Of a stretch of 34,436 nt of DNA, positions 2,369 to 25,835 are shown piece after piece (the first letter of the stretch is position 1; every line of letters starts with the position of its first letter). Under the pieces are notes generated by a model, which was not told the DNA's origin, ran no database searches, and saw only the letters and a program-made list of their open reading frames with translations. The stretch is from positions 1-34,436 of the forward strand of contig MEKT01000177.1 of the NCBI GenBank assembly GCA_001767435.1, in the 5' to 3' direction. Origin of the DNA: Acidobacteria bacterium RIFCSPLOWO2_02_FULL_65_29 (GTDB lineage Bacteria; Acidobacteriota; Vicinamibacteria; Vicinamibacterales; CAVVIG01). The position numbers and the translations under genes were made by a program.

Positions 2369-2419
2369 CGATTCTCAATTCTTAATTCTTGATGTTTCTT
2401 GGTTCTGAAATTCTCAATC
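2369..2419. repeat. Degenerate heptamer tract, unit like ATTCTTA
   Basis: An A+T-rich tract with about seven degenerate copies of a 7-nt unit occupies the whole spacer between the polyferredoxin stop and the VOC start. Its base composition contrasts strongly with the flanking genes. Confidence 0.7.
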
Positions 2420-3377
2420 AACGTGCCGCGGCCATCTTGTCGGCTTTCCTCAGAATGATGATCCAGTGCGGGCACTTCTTCTGGTCCATGTAGAGCCGCT
2501 CGCAGTCGTCGCAGCGCACGCACTCGCTCTTGACGATCGTGGGGCCCTGAATGGCGCCCCACTCGCAGGTCTTCTCGCAGATCTTGCACGTGTTGCACTC
2601 GGACCAGCGCTTGATCTTGAAGACGGTCAGGTTCGACAGCACTCCCAGCATGGCGCCGACCGGGCACAGGAACCGGCAGTACATGTTCCTCACGAAGACC
2701 GTCGCGACGAGCAGCAGGCCCAGGCCGGTCCAGAGCGCCGCGGTCTCGGTCGCGCTCGATCCCGAGCTCGTGCGCGCGAACAGCCAGAACGGCTCGACGT
2801 ACCGGTACACCATCAGGTTGTGCGTGATGAGGTAGTAGACGATCAAGCCGCCGAGCAGTCCGTACTTGATCCACGCGGCGCGCCGCTCGAGCCAGACCGG
2901 CGGCTCCACGCGGAGCTTCTTCGGGAGCGTGGCGTCCATCGCCTGCGTCAGCGCGCCGTAGGCGCAGATGCGCCCGCAGTACACGCGGCCCCAGAGCACC
3001 GTCGAGACCACGGTGAAGAGCGCGAAGATGTACCACATCACGTTATGTCTCGGGATCGGCAGGTTCCGGTCCATCACGCCGAAGATGTTCACGATGGAGA
3101 TGAGATTGCTCTTGTAGAACCCCATGTAGCCGACCGCCAGCGCGAAGGTGACGTACTTGAGGGGCACGCTCTTCTTGAAGAAACTGACCATCGCGAAGGC
3201 GAGGAACGCGGTCGTGAGGATCACGTCGGCGGCTTGCGGACGGAGGATGTCCTGCCAGGTGTCCTCCTGCTCCTCTTCGAAGCCCCAGGGATCGGCCGGC
3301 GTCTGCGCGTGCGCGACGGAGGGCGCGATGAATGCCACAATCGCGACGAACAACAGCGTCGCCGCGAGCCACCTCAC
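2418..3377 (-). CDS. NosR-like membrane polyferredoxin (4Fe-4S)
   Basis: A 319-residue inner-membrane protein. After a signal peptide or first helix (residues 1-25) come several transmembrane helices with two CxxxC loops (C134/C138 and C234/C238), as in the NosR/NapH/CcoG group. The C-terminal ferredoxin part has C261-C264-C267-C271 and C286-C289-C292-C302. The second cluster has the long spacing and the CxxCxxCxxLY...CP pattern of NosR/NirI C-termini. Its role is electron transfer between the quinone pool and periplasmic or flavin partners. It overlaps the FMN-binding gene by four bases (ATGA-type), so the two genes together look like a split NosR. No nosZ is visible nearby, so the electron acceptor is unknown. 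Confidence 0.85.
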   Translation of the reverse strand: MRWLAATLLFVAIVAFIAPSVAHAQTPADPWGFEEEQEDTWQDILRPQAADVILTTAFLAFAMVSFFKKSVPLKYVTFALAVGYMGFYKSNLISIVNIFGVMDRNLPIPRHNVMWYIFALFTVVSTVLWGRVYCGRICAYGALTQAMDATLPKKLRVEPPVWLERRAAWIKYGLLGGLIVYYLITHNLMVYRYVEPFWLFARTSSGSSATETAALWTGLGLLLVATVFVRNMYCRFLCPVGAMLGVLSNLTVFKIKRWSECNTCKICEKTCEWGAIQGPTIVKSECVRCDDCERLYMDQKKCPHWIIILRKADKMAAAR

Positions 3378-3913
3378 CGCTTCACCGCGTCGGGCGAGAG
3401 GAACTGACGCGCCATCACCCGGGCGCTGTCGCGAATCGCGCGCGTCGCGCTGTTGATGCTCAGCGAGGCGCGTGAGACGGCGTCGATATCGCCGCCCACC
3501 TTGAACGGCTCACGAATGCTCTTGCCCTTGAACTGCTCGGCGAAGGCGTCGGGCTCGACGGAGAAATAGCCGTACGGCTCCGAGTGATAGTCCACGACCA
3601 CGCCCGAGATGATGCCCGTCATGTCCATGCCGACGAGCACATGAATCGGACCGTGATACCCGTGCTCGTACGGCACCAGGTCTGTCGTCCAGAAGACGAG
3701 GCCGAGCGGTGTCGCCGCGGCGTTTCCGTGCGGGTCCGAGGCGTACGCGGTGAAATGCAGCGGCTCGCCCGTGAGCGGCGTGAAGAATCCGGCCTTCGGA
3801 AACAGCTTCTTCAGATGCCCGTCGGGCTTCGGGTTGGTGAACGTGCGCGTCGCGCCGAACACCACGATGCCGCCGCTGCACAGCAGCACGGCGAGCGCGG
3901 CAAGCTTCTTCAA
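3374..3913 (-). CDS. FMN-binding domain protein (NosR N-terminal-like)
   Basis: A 179-residue protein with an N-terminal membrane anchor or signal and an FMN-binding domain like those of RnfG and NosR. A central HGPIHVLVGMD block and a C-terminal DAVSRASLS stand where the family carries the Ser/Thr that is flavinylated by ApbE; here the motif has Arg-Ala-Ser rather than Gly-Ala-Thr. The start is the TTG at 3913, because GGGAGG lies five bases upstream and the hydrophobic segment begins there. Continuing to an upstream start at 4060 would translate the structured leader. It is the first gene of the FMN/polyferredoxin pair and probably passes electrons to or from it. Confidence 0.8.
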   Translation of the reverse strand: MKKLAALAVLLCSGGIVVFGATRTFTNPKPDGHLKKLFPKAGFFTPLTGEPLHFTAYASDPHGNAAATPLGLVFWTTDLVPYEHGYHGPIHVLVGMDMTGIISGVVVDYHSEPYGYFSVEPDAFAEQFKGKSIREPFKVGGDIDAVSRASLSINSATRAIRDSARVMARQFLSPDAVKR

Positions 3914-13516: not shown

Positions 13517-13751
13517 CTTAGCCCGTTCTGCTGGTCGACACGAGAATGTTTTACTCGTTCCGCATGGCGGGCGAGGCGCGCACGGCGCGCCTGCGACCCT
13601 TCGACGCTGCTCAGGGTCGACCTGAGTCGAGTCGAAGGTCGAGGGAGCGGCGCGGGGCGGAGGGGTCCCCGCCCTTCGACGAGCTCGGGGCGCCGTGAGC
13701 CTGCCGAACGGCGCAAGCGACCGAGCCGGGGTGTGGGGCGGAGCCCCACGT
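13517..13751 (+). mobile_element. Composite repeat: ~147-bp element carrying two inserted REP-like palindromes
   Basis: Apart from two insertions, this matches the inverted copy at 25577-25718 over its whole length. Insert 1 (13597-13642, 46 bp) and insert 2 (13673-13714, 42 bp) are both palindromes beginning CCTTCGAC, and both are missing from the other copy, where CTGCGA joins GGGAGC and CCCCGC joins AAGCGA directly. Insert 1 is flanked by CGA on both sides, a possible target duplication. The element ends in a GTGGGGC/GCCCCAC hairpin (13733-13749) four bases beyond the stop of the receiver gene. The spacer 13437-13755 holds no gene. Confidence 0.82.
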
Positions 13752-14286: not shown

Positions 14287-14446
14287 ACAGCCCGTGGTGA
14301 AAGTCTGGCGTCGCACCGAGACGGGCGAGGCGCCCCGCCGGCAAGGCGCGACGACCGAGAATACCGGGAGTATTTGAGGGAGGAGCAACGCAGCCGGCGG
14401 GGATGCATCGCCCGTCGAATGCAGTCAGACTTTCACCACGGGCTGT
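14287..14446. mobile_element. MITE-like element with 21-bp perfect terminal inverted repeats
   Basis: Positions 14287-14307 and 14426-14446 are exact reverse complements (ACAGCCCGTGGTGAAAGTCT plus one base). The 160-bp body has no coding capacity and contains the 50-bp core shared with window positions 1-50. Dinucleotide CA flanks both ends and may be a target duplication. The right end abuts the stop codon of the neighbouring minus-strand gene. No transposase is present, so it would move in trans. Confidence 0.78.
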
Positions 14447-15247: not shown

Positions 15248-15282
15248 GGGGTCAGACTGGGGTCAGACCCCACTCCGACCCC
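15248..15282. repeat. 35-bp near-palindrome, copy 1
   Basis: A near-palindrome with core GGGGTCAGACCCC, in the 5' leader of the minus-strand secreted protein just upstream of its ribosome-binding site. It matches the perfect 35-bp palindrome at 15411-15445 at all but a few positions. Confidence 0.82.
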
Positions 15283-15318
15283 GCACCGATCAACGTCAAA
15301 CGATACCACCCCGGCCCG

Positions 15319-15349: not shown

Positions 15350-16744
15350 ATGATTCCCCTGAAATTCAGGACTCTGATGGTCGTCTCGCTCGTCCTGGTG
15401 GTCCTCTTCGGGGGTCAGCGTGGGGTCAGACCCCACGCTGACCCCGGCTACGCCCTCGCGGCCCAGCAGGCCGCGCCGCGGCCGGCGCCCGCGAGGCCGG
15501 CGGCGACGACCGCGGCGGCGAACGCGACGCCCGAGAGCGTCGGCATCTCGACAGAGCGGCTCGGCCGCCTTCACGCCGGCATGCAGGCGATGGTCGATCG
15601 CCACGAGGCGGGCGGGATCGTCACGCTCGTCGCGCGCGAGGGCAAGGTCGTGGACCTGCACGCCTCGGGGTTTCAGGACGTCGAGAGCGGCAGGCCGATG
15701 GCGACCGACACGATCTTCCGCATCGCGTCGATGACCAAACCTATCACCAGCGTCGCGGTGATGATGTTGTACGAGGAAGGCAAGCTGCTGCTCACCGACC
15801 CGGTGTCGAAGTTCATCCCGGCATTCACGAGCATGCACGTGACGGGCGAAGGCGGGGCGCTCGTGCCGGCGCGGCGCGAGATCACGATTCGCGATCTGCT
15901 GTCGCACCGATCGGGCCTCTCGTACGGGTTCCTGAACGGCGGTCCTGTCGGCGACGCCTACCGTAAAGAAGGCGTGCCGGATGGATTGACGATGACACCG
16001 ATGACGCTCCAGGAAGGCATCGACAAGCTCGCGGCCCAGCCCCTGATGAGCCACCCGGGCGCGGCTTGGAACTACAGCCTCTCGATCGACGTGCTCGGGC
16101 GCGTCGTCGAAGTGGCGTCCGCCACCTCGTTCGACGTGTTTCTTCGCGACCGCATCTTCAAGCCGCTCGGCATGGCCGACACGAGCTTCGACGTGCCCGA
16201 CGCGAAGTGGCCGCGGCTGGCGACCGTCTACTCACCGAACGGCAGCCGTGGCATCCGGCCGATGAGGGATCCCGAGTCGTTCGGCAACACCCACATGTCG
16301 CCGGGGGCGTCGTACAAGGCACCCAAGAAGTATTTCTCCGGCGGCGCGGGTCTCACGTCGACCGCGCACGACTACGCCCGGTTCGCGCTCATGCTCGCCG
16401 GCGGCGGCGTGCTCGACGGCGTGCGCCTCCTCAGCCCGAAGACGATCGAGCTGATGACCGCCAGCCACACCGCCGACTTGCCGGGTGGCGGGTTGATCGG
16501 CAACGGCGCCAATTTTGGTCTGGGCTTCCGCGTGGTGACCGACGTGGCCACGACGCAGACGGCAGGATCGATCGGGATGTACGGCTGGAGCGGCATCTAC
16601 GGCACCACGTTCTGGGTCGATCCGAAGGAGCGGCTCGTCGCGATCCTGATGGTGCAGCGCTATCCAGGATCTCCCGTCGCCGCGGCGTTCCAGCCACTCG
16701 TCTACCAGACGCTGACCCAGAGTTTCTCGACCGCGACGCCATAA
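15350..16744 (+). CDS. Secreted serine hydrolase, class C beta-lactamase fold
   Basis: A 464-residue protein of the beta-lactamase/penicillin-binding esterase family. The active-site SMTK is at residues 127-130, and the second motif is Tyr-Ser-Leu at 242-244 (usually YxN). A Gly-Trp-Ser-Gly stretch near residue 410 stands where the KTG-like motif belongs. These proteins are usually esterases, D-amino-acid peptidases or beta-lactamases; the substrate is unknown. The signal peptide is odd: residues 21-33 (QRGVRPHADP region) are encoded by a 35-bp palindromic repeat, and removing them leaves a normal signal ending in YALA-AQ. Good -10 and ribosome-binding site support ATG 15350. Confidence 0.87.
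   Translation: MIPLKFRTLMVVSLVLVVLFGGQRGVRPHADPGYALAAQQAAPRPAPARPAATTAAANATPESVGISTERLGRLHAGMQAMVDRHEAGGIVTLVAREGKVVDLHASGFQDVESGRPMATDTIFRIASMTKPITSVAVMMLYEEGKLLLTDPVSKFIPAFTSMHVTGEGGALVPARREITIRDLLSHRSGLSYGFLNGGPVGDAYRKEGVPDGLTMTPMTLQEGIDKLAAQPLMSHPGAAWNYSLSIDVLGRVVEVASATSFDVFLRDRIFKPLGMADTSFDVPDAKWPRLATVYSPNGSRGIRPMRDPESFGNTHMSPGASYKAPKKYFSGGAGLTSTAHDYARFALMLAGGGVLDGVRLLSPKTIELMTASHTADLPGGGLIGNGANFGLGFRVVTDVATTQTAGSIGMYGWSGIYGTTFWVDPKERLVAILMVQRYPGSPVAAAFQPLVYQTLTQSFSTATP
15411..15445. repeat. Perfect 35-bp palindrome inside a signal-peptide coding region
   Basis: Two 17-bp arms are exact reverse complements around one central base (core GGGGTCAGACCCC). It is embedded in frame between the hydrophobic core and the cleavage site of the serine hydrolase. 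A related copy lies 163 bp upstream, at 15248-15282. Confidence 0.9.
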
Positions 16745-20296: not shown

Positions 20297-20472
20297 ACGA
20301 CGATCAACGCATCCCTCGACAGGCTCGGGATGCCCTGAGCTTGTCGCCCCTCGACGGTGCTCGGGACGACCCTGAGCCAGTCGAAGGGTCGAAGGGCAGA
20401 GACCGCGGAGCCCGCAGAGCAGACGTCAACCACGGAGGACACGAAGGGTTCACGCCCTGCGTTGATCGTCGT
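20297..20472. repeat. Composite spacer repeat bounded by a 15-bp inverted repeat
   Basis: ACGACGATCAACGCA at 20297-20311 is repeated inverted at 20458-20472. Between them lie two REP-like palindromes of the TCGAC...CCCTGAGC type (about 20315-20345 and 20347-20388) and a CGCGGAGC/CGCAGAG-type tract. Related copies of the 15-mer occur at 18446-18461 and 25815-25835. No gene is visible in this spacer. Confidence 0.7.
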
Positions 20473-21067: not shown

Positions 21068-21159
21068 GAAATCACGAAAGCATGAAAGAGAAACCTTTGT
21101 TGATCTCAAGTCTCTGCGGTCTCTGCGTCTCGAGTCCCGAGTCCCGAGCCCCGAGTCCC
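21064..21159. repeat. Mixed tandem tracts (octamer CACGAAAT/G and heptamer CCCGAGT)
   Basis: A CACGAAAT-CACGAAAG-CATGAAAG tract (21064-21090) is followed by a CTCTGCGG/CTCTGCGT tract and then four CCCGAGT-type heptamers (21131-21158). Together they fill the spacer between the Rieske gene and the stop of the upstream PQQ gene. Confidence 0.78.
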
Positions 21160-22940
21160 TACCGCTTCGGCAGCGCGAAGCTCAGAATCAAATCTCCACC
21201 CCGCCGGCCGCGCTCGCCTCCGCCCGATCCGACGGTGACGAATTGTTCGCCGTTCACCATGTACATCGCGGGTGACGAGAAGACGCCGGAGCCCGTGTTG
21301 AATTTCCAGAGCAGCTCGCCCGTCTTCGCGTGAAACGCCATGAAGTAGCCGGCCGTGTTGCTGCCGCTGCCCACGAACACCAGATCGCTCGAGGTGGCGA
21401 CGGAACCGGCCTGGCCGAAGCCGTCGTAGATCTTTTGCCAGATGAGCTCCCCCGTCGTCGGGTCGTAGGCGGAGAAGTACCCCTTTGGCGGCCGATCCGA
21501 ACCCGCCGGATCGTCGATCGCGTTGACGTAGAGATAGCCCGTGCGCGGACTGTAGGACAGGGGCCCGTAGTTCGCGCCCCCGCCCGTGCCCGGCGCGGCG
21601 ATCTGGTTCGGACCCGGCGGCGTGTACATCGGCACGAGTTTGCTTTTCGCCATCTCGTCGGCCGGGATGTCGACCGGAAACACCGGGCTGACGGGCACCA
21701 TCATCTTCCCAGCCGCGGTGAACGGAATCGGCTGCGTGGGCCAGGGCTGCTCGCCGGGACGGCTCGTCTCGGTTGGCACGGGGACTTCCTTGATGGGATG
21801 CACCGGCTGCCCCGTTTCGCGGTTCAGGATGTACAGAAAACCGTTCTTGCTCGCCTCGGCCAGCGCCTTCACGCGCTGCCCTCGCACCGTCATGTCGAAG
21901 AGAATCGGCTGGTTGCCGGAGTCGTAGTCCCAGACGTCGTGGTGCGTCTGCTGGAAGTACCACTTCAGCCTGCCGGTATCGAGCGTGAGCGCGATGAGGG
22001 AATCGGTGAAGAGGTTGATCCCGGCGCGCTTCGTGCTGTCGCCGAAGGGATTCCCCACGGCCACGTAGATGAGCCCGAGCTCCGGATCGATCGACGGCGT
22101 CTCCCAGATGCCGCCGCCGTTGCGCTCGCCGCCCACCCACGTCGGTCCGGCAATGTCCCAGCCCTGATCTTTTTCGTCCTGCGGAATCGTGTTGAAGTGC
22201 CAGAGGACCTTGCCCGTTTTCGCGTCGACCGCGAGCACGTGACCGCCGGGAATGTGGCTCTCGCTGCGCGTGCTGACGACGTAGAGGACGCCGTTGTGAA
22301 TCTGCGGCGCGGTCGTGAACCAGTAGCCGAGGCTGATGGCCGTTTTCACTTCGGGGAATCGCTGCTGGACCACGTCCAGGATCACGCTCGCCTGGCCATC
22401 CTTGCCGAACGTCGGGATGGGTTTGCCGGTCTTCGCATCGAGCGCGAACAGAAAGGATCCAGCCGAGGTGTAGACGACGCCGTCGGCGTAGCAGACGCCG
22501 CGATTGCGGAAGACGTAGCCTTCGCGCCGTCCTCCGCCGATGAGGTTCGTCACGTCGAACGACCAGAGGAGGTGGCCGTCGGCCGCGTTCACGGCATAGA
22601 CGCCGCCGCGTGGATCGGTCACGTACATCACTCCATCCACGATCACCGGCGTGGTCTGGTTGCTGACGCCGTCGATGATGCCGTATTGAAACAGCCAGCG
22701 CGGCGTGAGCGTGGTCACGTTGGATGGCGTGATCTGGTCCAGCGTGGAATACCGGCTGCCGGCCAGGTCGAGGTTGTGCAGGGGCCAGTTGACGGTGGCC
22801 GCCGCACCCGGACGAGCTGCCCCCTGGGCCCCCTGAGCCCTCTGAGCCCTCTGAGCAACGACACGCGGCGCCAGCGCGCTCGCCGTGAGCGCGGCCGATG
22901 CAACGAGACTCAGGGCAATCACCGATCGCGCAGACGCCAT
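21159..22940 (-). CDS. PQQ-dependent dehydrogenase, glucose-dehydrogenase-like propeller
   Basis: A 593-residue exported quinoprotein. The motif HHDVWDYD at 333-340 followed by QPILFD is typical of the membrane glucose/quinate dehydrogenase-like branch; blade repeats with DAKTGK are visible throughout. It lacks the N-terminal transmembrane domain of Gcd, so it is soluble or peripheral. Directly after the probable signal cleavage (VVA-Q, residue 29-30) the protein has four copies of Ala-Gln-Arg/Gly, encoded by a 9-nt tandem repeat. The start is ATG 22940, where the signal peptide begins. First gene of the PQQ - Rieske - PQQ row; substrate unknown. Confidence 0.85.
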   Translation of the reverse strand: MASARSVIALSLVASAALTASALAPRVVAQRAQRAQGAQGAARPGAAATVNWPLHNLDLAGSRYSTLDQITPSNVTTLTPRWLFQYGIIDGVSNQTTPVIVDGVMYVTDPRGGVYAVNAADGHLLWSFDVTNLIGGGRREGYVFRNRGVCYADGVVYTSAGSFLFALDAKTGKPIPTFGKDGQASVILDVVQQRFPEVKTAISLGYWFTTAPQIHNGVLYVVSTRSESHIPGGHVLAVDAKTGKVLWHFNTIPQDEKDQGWDIAGPTWVGGERNGGGIWETPSIDPELGLIYVAVGNPFGDSTKRAGINLFTDSLIALTLDTGRLKWYFQQTHHDVWDYDSGNQPILFDMTVRGQRVKALAEASKNGFLYILNRETGQPVHPIKEVPVPTETSRPGEQPWPTQPIPFTAAGKMMVPVSPVFPVDIPADEMAKSKLVPMYTPPGPNQIAAPGTGGGANYGPLSYSPRTGYLYVNAIDDPAGSDRPPKGYFSAYDPTTGELIWQKIYDGFGQAGSVATSSDLVFVGSGSNTAGYFMAFHAKTGELLWKFNTGSGVFSSPAMYMVNGEQFVTVGSGGGERGRRGGDLILSFALPKR

Positions 22941-24969: not shown

Positions 24970-25099
24970 CGGGCATCCCAGCCCCGAGCCCGCCTCCCAA
25001 ACCCCGATTTCCGAACCCCGAATCCCGAGCCCCGAGTCCCCACCTCCGCTCGCCTGATCGCCAGGCGAGCTGCGGCGGGCGGGCCGAGTCCCGAGTCCA
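24970..25099. repeat. Heptamer tracts, unit CCCGAGT / CCCCGAA
   Basis: A long degenerate run of C-rich heptamers fills the spacer between the divergent HD and FKBP genes. It is broken by a CGCTCGCCTG/CAGGCGAGC hairpin around 25048-25070. Nothing else is seen in this spacer except the two promoters at its ends. Confidence 0.78.
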
Positions 25100-25576: not shown

Positions 25577-25718
25577 ACGTGGGGCTCCGCCCCACACCCC
25601 GGCTCGGTCGCTTGCGGGGACCCCTTCGCCCCGCGCCGCTCCCTCGCAGGCGCGCCGTGCGCGCCTTGCCCGTTATGCGAGAACAAAATTCTCGTTTCGA
25701 CTAGCATAACGGGCTAAG
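25577..25718 (-). repeat. ~142-bp interspersed repeat, uninterrupted copy
   Basis: This is the inverted partner of 13517-13751 without the two inserted palindromes. It has a GTGGGGC/GCCCCAC hairpin (25579-25595) next to the FKBP stop and, at the other end, a long imperfect hairpin (25668-25714) built from GCCCGTTATGC and its complement with inner CGAGAA/TTCTCG. In both copies the small hairpin is nearest to a stop codon, so it may act as a transcription end signal. Confidence 0.82.
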
Positions 25719-25751: not shown

Positions 25752-25835
25752 CGCGGAGCACGCAGAGATCGCATATCAGCCCATTCTAGAGTCCCCGCGA
25801 GCTCTGCGAGCTCTGCGGTGATCGTCGTGTTCGTA
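25752..25835. repeat. CGCGGAGC/CGCAGAG- and GAGCTCTGC-type tracts
   Basis: CCGCGGAGCACGCAGAG (25751-25767) and a 9-nt tandem GAGCTCTGC (25800-25817) are followed by GATCGTCGTG, the same order of motifs as in the spacer 20297-20472. The spacer 25719-25845 holds no gene. Confidence 0.65.

Follow-up and report, generated by a model that had tools for sequence, protein, structure and literature searches.

Short palindromes that recur as hairpins in a bacterial genome are commonly classed as REPs, with RAYTs taken to be their movers, and optional hairpin modules are also a feature of the modular intergenic mosaic repeats BIME and pneumococcal BOX. The REP/RAYT systems (REPtrons) comprise a GTAG and a CGTC superfamily of 20-40-nt hairpins that occur in many copies, of which the CGTC REPs have no dedicated transposase and are characterised by an unpaired CGTC at one end, a stem of 8-9 bp, a loop of 4-5 nt and a CCA tail (PMC3733652, PMC8266576). 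Bacterial MITEs, such as QMITE1 of Coxiella, include copies from 39 bp upwards (PMC10969869). Rickettsia palindromic elements (RPEs) measure 105-150 bp and are found in frame inside protein genes as well as between genes (PMC10969869, PMC2229807), and the 168-bp YPAL of Yersinia makes target duplications of 3-26 bp in targets near dyad symmetry (PMC2229807).

The stretch of DNA analysed here (34,436 nucleotides, referred to as the window), which belongs to an uncultivated lineage of Acidobacteriota, contains two palindromes inside one copy of a dispersed 142-bp intergenic repeat, and a second copy of that repeat that is empty at both points. We consider it probable that these inserts are almost fully palindromic, non-autonomous MITE-like units of about 40 bp, which are moved in trans and have been spread further by their host repeats. 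Like bacterial MITEs they are short, have inverted repeats, lie between direct repeats of the target, carry no gene and would be moved in trans; they differ in that the unit is the palindrome alone (39-43 bp), in the 3-bp duplication, and in that 100 of the 105 single arms in the own genome yielded no related IS. With RPEs they share the occurrence of palindromic repeats both between genes and in frame within them (here four open ORFs, one confirmed against 29 orthologues), but the present units are about 40 bp long with a clear 3-bp duplication, whereas RPEs are without an established target duplication; the two are set apart by size. YPAL is likewise palindromic and not A+T-rich, with target duplications and known empty and filled sites, yet it is much longer and its duplications vary in length. 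The REP superfamilies are also multi-copy hairpins, and the CGTC REPs likewise lack a dedicated transposase; in contrast to both, the palindromes described here have no GTAG or CGTC tag at their tips and no genomic Y1, and do have a target duplication. Finally, the optional hairpin modules recall BIME and BOX, but in the present case target duplications accompany the modules, which are found in several host repeats unrelated to one another.

The kinds of element concerned, MITEs, REPs, RPEs and YPAL, are already known (PMC10969869, PMC3733652, PMC2229807). The novelty lies in the combination: the unit is a bare palindrome of about 40 bp, its duplication has a fixed length of 3 bp, it is nested in three host repeats as well as in itself, there are in-frame insertions into genes, and a RAYT is lacking. 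A literature search by sequence strings and encoded peptides, with most subscription papers outside its scope, returned nothing relevant on the palindrome family. We know of no description of it.

Two copies of the 142-bp repeat

The filled copy lies on the minus strand at 13517-13751, with its head (ACGTGGGG) at 13751 and a tail hairpin near 13517; the empty copy lies on the plus strand at 25577-25718. Read from 13751 to 13517, the former is collinear with the latter save for two inserts, as the first-pass annotation had claimed, and the alignment consists of inverted matches of 40 nt (100%), 33 nt (97%) and 36 nt (92%). The insertion points, empty in the second copy, are site A (TTGCG^GGGAC) and site B (CTCG^CAGG). 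Comparison of empty and filled sites places a 39-bp palindrome (allele A2; CCGTTCGGCAGGCTCACGGCGCCCCGAGCTCGTCGAAGG on the minus strand) at 13673-13711, minus strand, between direct repeats that read CGC on the plus strand (13670-13672 and 13712-13714), and a 43-bp palindrome (allele B2; CCCTTCGACGCTGCTCAGGGTCGACCTGAGTCGAGTCGAAGGT on the plus strand) at 13597-13639, also assigned to the minus strand, between direct repeats CGA (13594-13596 and 13640-13642). The insert lengths of 46 and 42 bp given previously each include one copy of the 3-bp repeat; the palindromes alone measure 43 and 39 bp. The CGA reported on both sides of the first insert is indeed there, and the second insert is flanked in the same way by CGC.

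That the inserts are not chance structures is evident from the remainder of the genome. The head of the 142-bp repeat occurs in about 91 copies (51 forward, 40 reverse; control 0), and a search for the palindrome family pattern returned 74 places (reversed control 0). Both lists were built by pattern searches, in which diverged copies may be missed, and the source genome (5.5 Mb in 239 contigs, 97% complete) is fragmented and has runs of N in some repeats (L096), as has a locus with the 142-bp repeat in a relative (L168).

Three joints of the 142-bp copies are fixed. At site A there is either no palindrome or one of two alleles, A1 or A2; site B is likewise unoccupied or carries B1, B2 or a nested form, B3; and at site C some copies have a 54-bp module, which was tried as an insertion of the same kind and rejected, its overlap being only 1 bp. 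Sites A and B are both empty in 45 parsable copies, palindromes related to the two in the window sit at the same two points in others, and nearly all combinations of A and B alleles are found. Fusion alleles such as L065, which joins the left half of A1 to the right half of B1, indicate that palindromes recombine with one another. Since many copies have these alleles at the two fixed sites, in nearly all combinations, the pair at 13517-13751 was probably inherited with the composite repeat and not inserted at that locus.

The 142-bp core was found in 21 of the 60 relatives, from many families. Its joints accept several kinds of module: in relatives, quite different hairpins, for instance CCCCAACGCG...CGCGTTGGGG, lie at or beside sites C and B (G011 L148, G014 L163; G038, G047, G028 L173, L184-L187), and G047 has 48-bp inserts at yet another point of the repeat. 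A head-to-tail tandem array of the repeat, with the site A palindrome in several successive units, is present in G028:C174 (L168). The repeat keeps a constant left end, but its right end breaks off at varying points between positions 90 and 142 (tail module, window 25668-25718), and the head hairpin shows paired variation between genomes (GTGGGG/CCCCAC, CCGGGG/CCCCGG, ATGGGG/CCCCAT). An identity of the tail hairpin as integron attC was rejected by inspection, its arms GTTATGC...GCATAAC being the reverse of the attC order. The head (ACGTGGGG, preceded by CTA or CTC, as at 13751 and 25577) adjoins stop codons genome-wide: among 42 copies with an upstream gene on the same strand, 36 start within 12 nt of the stop, where spacer lengths predict 6.6%, and 17 of 23 still do so when the 19 copies that contribute part of a TAA are set aside, figures that rest on crude gene calls by a simple codon model and are biased by the built-in TAA.

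Insertion footprint

The footprint was read by aligning empty and filled sites from both sides, the overlap being the duplicated bases. At site A the overlap is exactly 3 bp for A1, for A2 and for a related palindrome in G028, a member of another family of the order. It is again exactly 3 bp at site B, where B1 has duplicated CGC and B2 TCG, triplets one base apart, and in two further host repeats (CGA and TGC), whereas it is 4 bp where one palindrome has entered another. In every comparison the inserted unit ends at the palindrome tips. When the same units were placed randomly in the window, an overlap of at least 3 arose in 6.8% (0.068 per independent target), and agreement of six independent target types by chance would be expected about once in ten million, by our own arithmetic from that figure. 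Moreover, a 3-mer direct repeat flanks the tips of 59 of 69 palindromes, against 27.9 when the right flanks were dealt out anew, a control that runs high because targets are shared. Because 65 of 70 palindromes fall in three repeat families, the independent insertions may be few, and their count is uncertain since the composite repeats multiply. A supposed opposite orientation of A1 and A2, considered as proof of independent insertion, did not withstand alignment.

Host repeats and nesting

The repeated, non-coding unit of about 39-43 bp has tips that form terminal inverted repeats CCYTTCGAC ... GTCGARGG (CCYTTCGACNNGCTCAGGG). When read with their flanks, 70 palindromes were divided over the 142-bp repeat (30), a third repeat (27), a second repeat (8) and other places (5). 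All three host repeats have empty copies. For the second repeat (CATGCCGAG...CGAGGCAT) locus L224 is an exact empty site. The third repeat occurs empty in the window at 25811-25829, plus strand (CTCTGC^GGTGATCGTCGTG), as read against filled copies elsewhere, which have the palindrome after CTCTGC with TGC duplicated. The window also has a filled copy (L244; 20312-20395, minus strand), in which an outer palindrome lies between TGC repeats and itself contains a second palindrome (20346-20387, minus strand) with GAC/CGAC duplicated on both sides. The earlier statement that repeats are nested thus extends to three unrelated repeat families and even to palindrome within palindrome.

Occupied and unoccupied sites, available for four kinds of repeat target and for a gene, reveal the insertion footprint of the palindromes, which would rank among the smallest mobile DNA with directly readable insertions.

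Insertion into genes and the direction of change

Short direct repeats that flank a hairpin also suit a deletion by slippage. Because such a deletion across the hairpin would leave the same footprint as an insertion, an orthologous locus was sought. Outside the repeats, four palindromes sit in ORFs that remain open through the palindrome, and one of these ORFs is polymerase-like, with the C-terminal domain of the Y family (PF11799, E 2.4e-4). The other three resemble genes for an esterase (C99:10592), a beta-propeller protein (C66:9731) and a WD40 protein (C21:20494). In the polymerase-like gene the palindrome adds 14 residues (GSTGSPRPERVEGR; 42 bp, i.e. 39 + 3), and it is absent from all 29 orthologous proteins that were retrieved from relatives and aligned (the closest about 80% identical). 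As judged by this alignment, which covers one gene, the palindrome in the polymerase-like gene is a derived insertion and its ancestral presence there is excluded. In-frame insertions of this kind would make the present bacteria a second group besides Rickettsia in which palindromes add peptides to proteins.

For the 142-bp repeat the argument is less firm. Of 92 copies of the core found in other genera, 73 have nothing at site B and the remainder mostly carry an unrelated hairpin there, so that empty is likely the older state at this site. The alternative is that the palindromes were ancestral at both sites and that the empty copies arose by gene conversion or by deletion between the 3-bp repeats through hairpin slippage. 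Related palindromes at site A in G028 and MELC01 and at site B in Ww172 are in line with such an origin, as is the identical footprint of a deletion, and the fusion alleles show that recombination between palindromes takes place. Nevertheless, the prevalence of empty site B in other genera, the use of triplets one base apart by different alleles, and the presence of the same palindrome family in an unrelated gene and in two further repeats make the ancestral reading unlikely.

The first-pass annotation had proposed that the palindromes are mobile, and evidence from beyond the window agrees: filled and empty copies exist in every type of target, with short duplications, and the insertion into the gene has no counterpart among the orthologues. 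It had also named the contrary outcome, an ancestral presence with loss from 25577-25718. The other copies speak against the ancestral part overall, but the same alleles recur at the same two sites in many copies, and the two palindromes need not have inserted into the copy at 13517-13751 itself.

A putative mobilising enzyme

The Pfam family PF01797 comprises the Y1 transposases, RAYTs included. It had no match in the source genome (97% complete, 3% unseen), whereas 5 of 14 control genomes were positive. The RAYT that the earlier annotation suggested looking for was accordingly not found, and the link to REP/RAYT that it had drawn is not supported, given this lack of Y1_Tnp, the missing tag and the target duplication. 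The GTAG tag was found beside none of 70 palindromes; CGTC lies beside a tip in two of them, and the stems are longer than the 8-9 bp of CGTC REPs. Elements of the IS200/IS605 type have neither terminal inverted repeats nor larger target duplications (PMC2817692), and the 3-bp duplication points to an enzyme other than a RAYT. Admittedly, the palindromes look like REPs moved by a RAYT (TnpAREP, a Y1 HUH transposase), being hairpins of about 40 nt in many, mostly intergenic copies, and 43 of the 60 relatives do have Y1 transposases. These transposases are not tied to the repeats among the relatives, and complete Y1-free genomes carry palindromes, for example G056 (100% complete, no PF01797, 19 palindromes). 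A RAYT as mover is therefore rejected for the source genome, and the REP/RAYT explanation, largely refuted, is now very improbable.

The search for an autonomous IS bounded by two arms covered 100 of the 105 single arms that the own genome has, and it found none. Among these arms, the one pair that faces inward a few kb apart, on contig C21, holds ordinary genes; by their look, its ORFs are dihydrodipicolinate-synthase-like, aminotransferase-like and transglycosylase-like. On the same contig (L256, G000:C21:9300-12800), the transglycosylase-like ORF 2402-3409 has a long tail of PEPVEG/PEPAEG-type repeats that look like translated palindromes of the family.

Interpretation

Two further explanations were weighed. 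Without any transposase, replication that switches templates at hairpins could produce the variants, given the microhomology at all junctions and the lack of a transposase among the searches. Yet in targets that are unrelated the units stop precisely at the palindrome tips, and those of one family reach unique coding DNA, which switching between local repeats would not give; we regard this explanation as rather improbable. The palindromes might also be functional RNA modules of the repeat (terminators or mRNA stabilisers) maintained by selection, and their hairpins are stable (-15 to -28 kcal/mol). Such a role, the least probable of the readings weighed, fits poorly with modules that are optional in nearly all combinations, with an orientation of the 142-bp repeat relative to the upstream gene that shows no preference (about 41 versus 43, by crude gene calls from a simple codon model), and with Rfam, which gave no match above threshold.

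In our preferred reading, that of a MITE-like unit, the palindrome integrates so that its tips directly abut the target, of which 3 bp are duplicated, as the empty and filled sites show. The favoured targets include defined positions within three other families of dispersed repeats, as well as the unit itself, and an insertion into a gene could stay in frame, four to five of the six frames of the unit being open. A transposase acting in trans, other than a Y1/RAYT enzyme, would make a 3-bp staggered cut and join the unit, and the palindromes in the 142-bp repeat would have travelled with it and been reshuffled between copies by recombination. Inverted repeats, a 3-bp duplication, many copies and the lack of a gene are what is seen of a MITE; the mobilising enzyme is what we infer. 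More tentatively, few complete mobile DNA units that integrate with a fixed target duplication may be shorter than these palindromes of about 40 bp, for which other repeats would serve as landing pads and a transposase not related to RAYTs as the mover; in Vicinamibacterales they may have given rise to repeats nested in several layers and to in-frame insertions in proteins. A complete mobile unit of this size, if true, would test the minimum of DNA that a transposase needs.

Distribution and other repeats in the window

Of the 60 relatives, 33 have the palindrome pattern. In a sample of 396 genomes of the phylum it occurs in 26 of 46 members of the order versus 7 of about 350 others, and these seven have one or two hits each, most of them unlike the palindrome.

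The window has other repeats as well. A 50-nt repeat occurs at 1-50 and 14365-14414 (90% identical), a palindromic repeat GGGGTCAGA...GACCCC is found twice (15248-15283 and 15411-15446), and short repeats of the CCGAGTCCCGAGCCC type lie at 714-754, 21123-21165 and 25004-25098.
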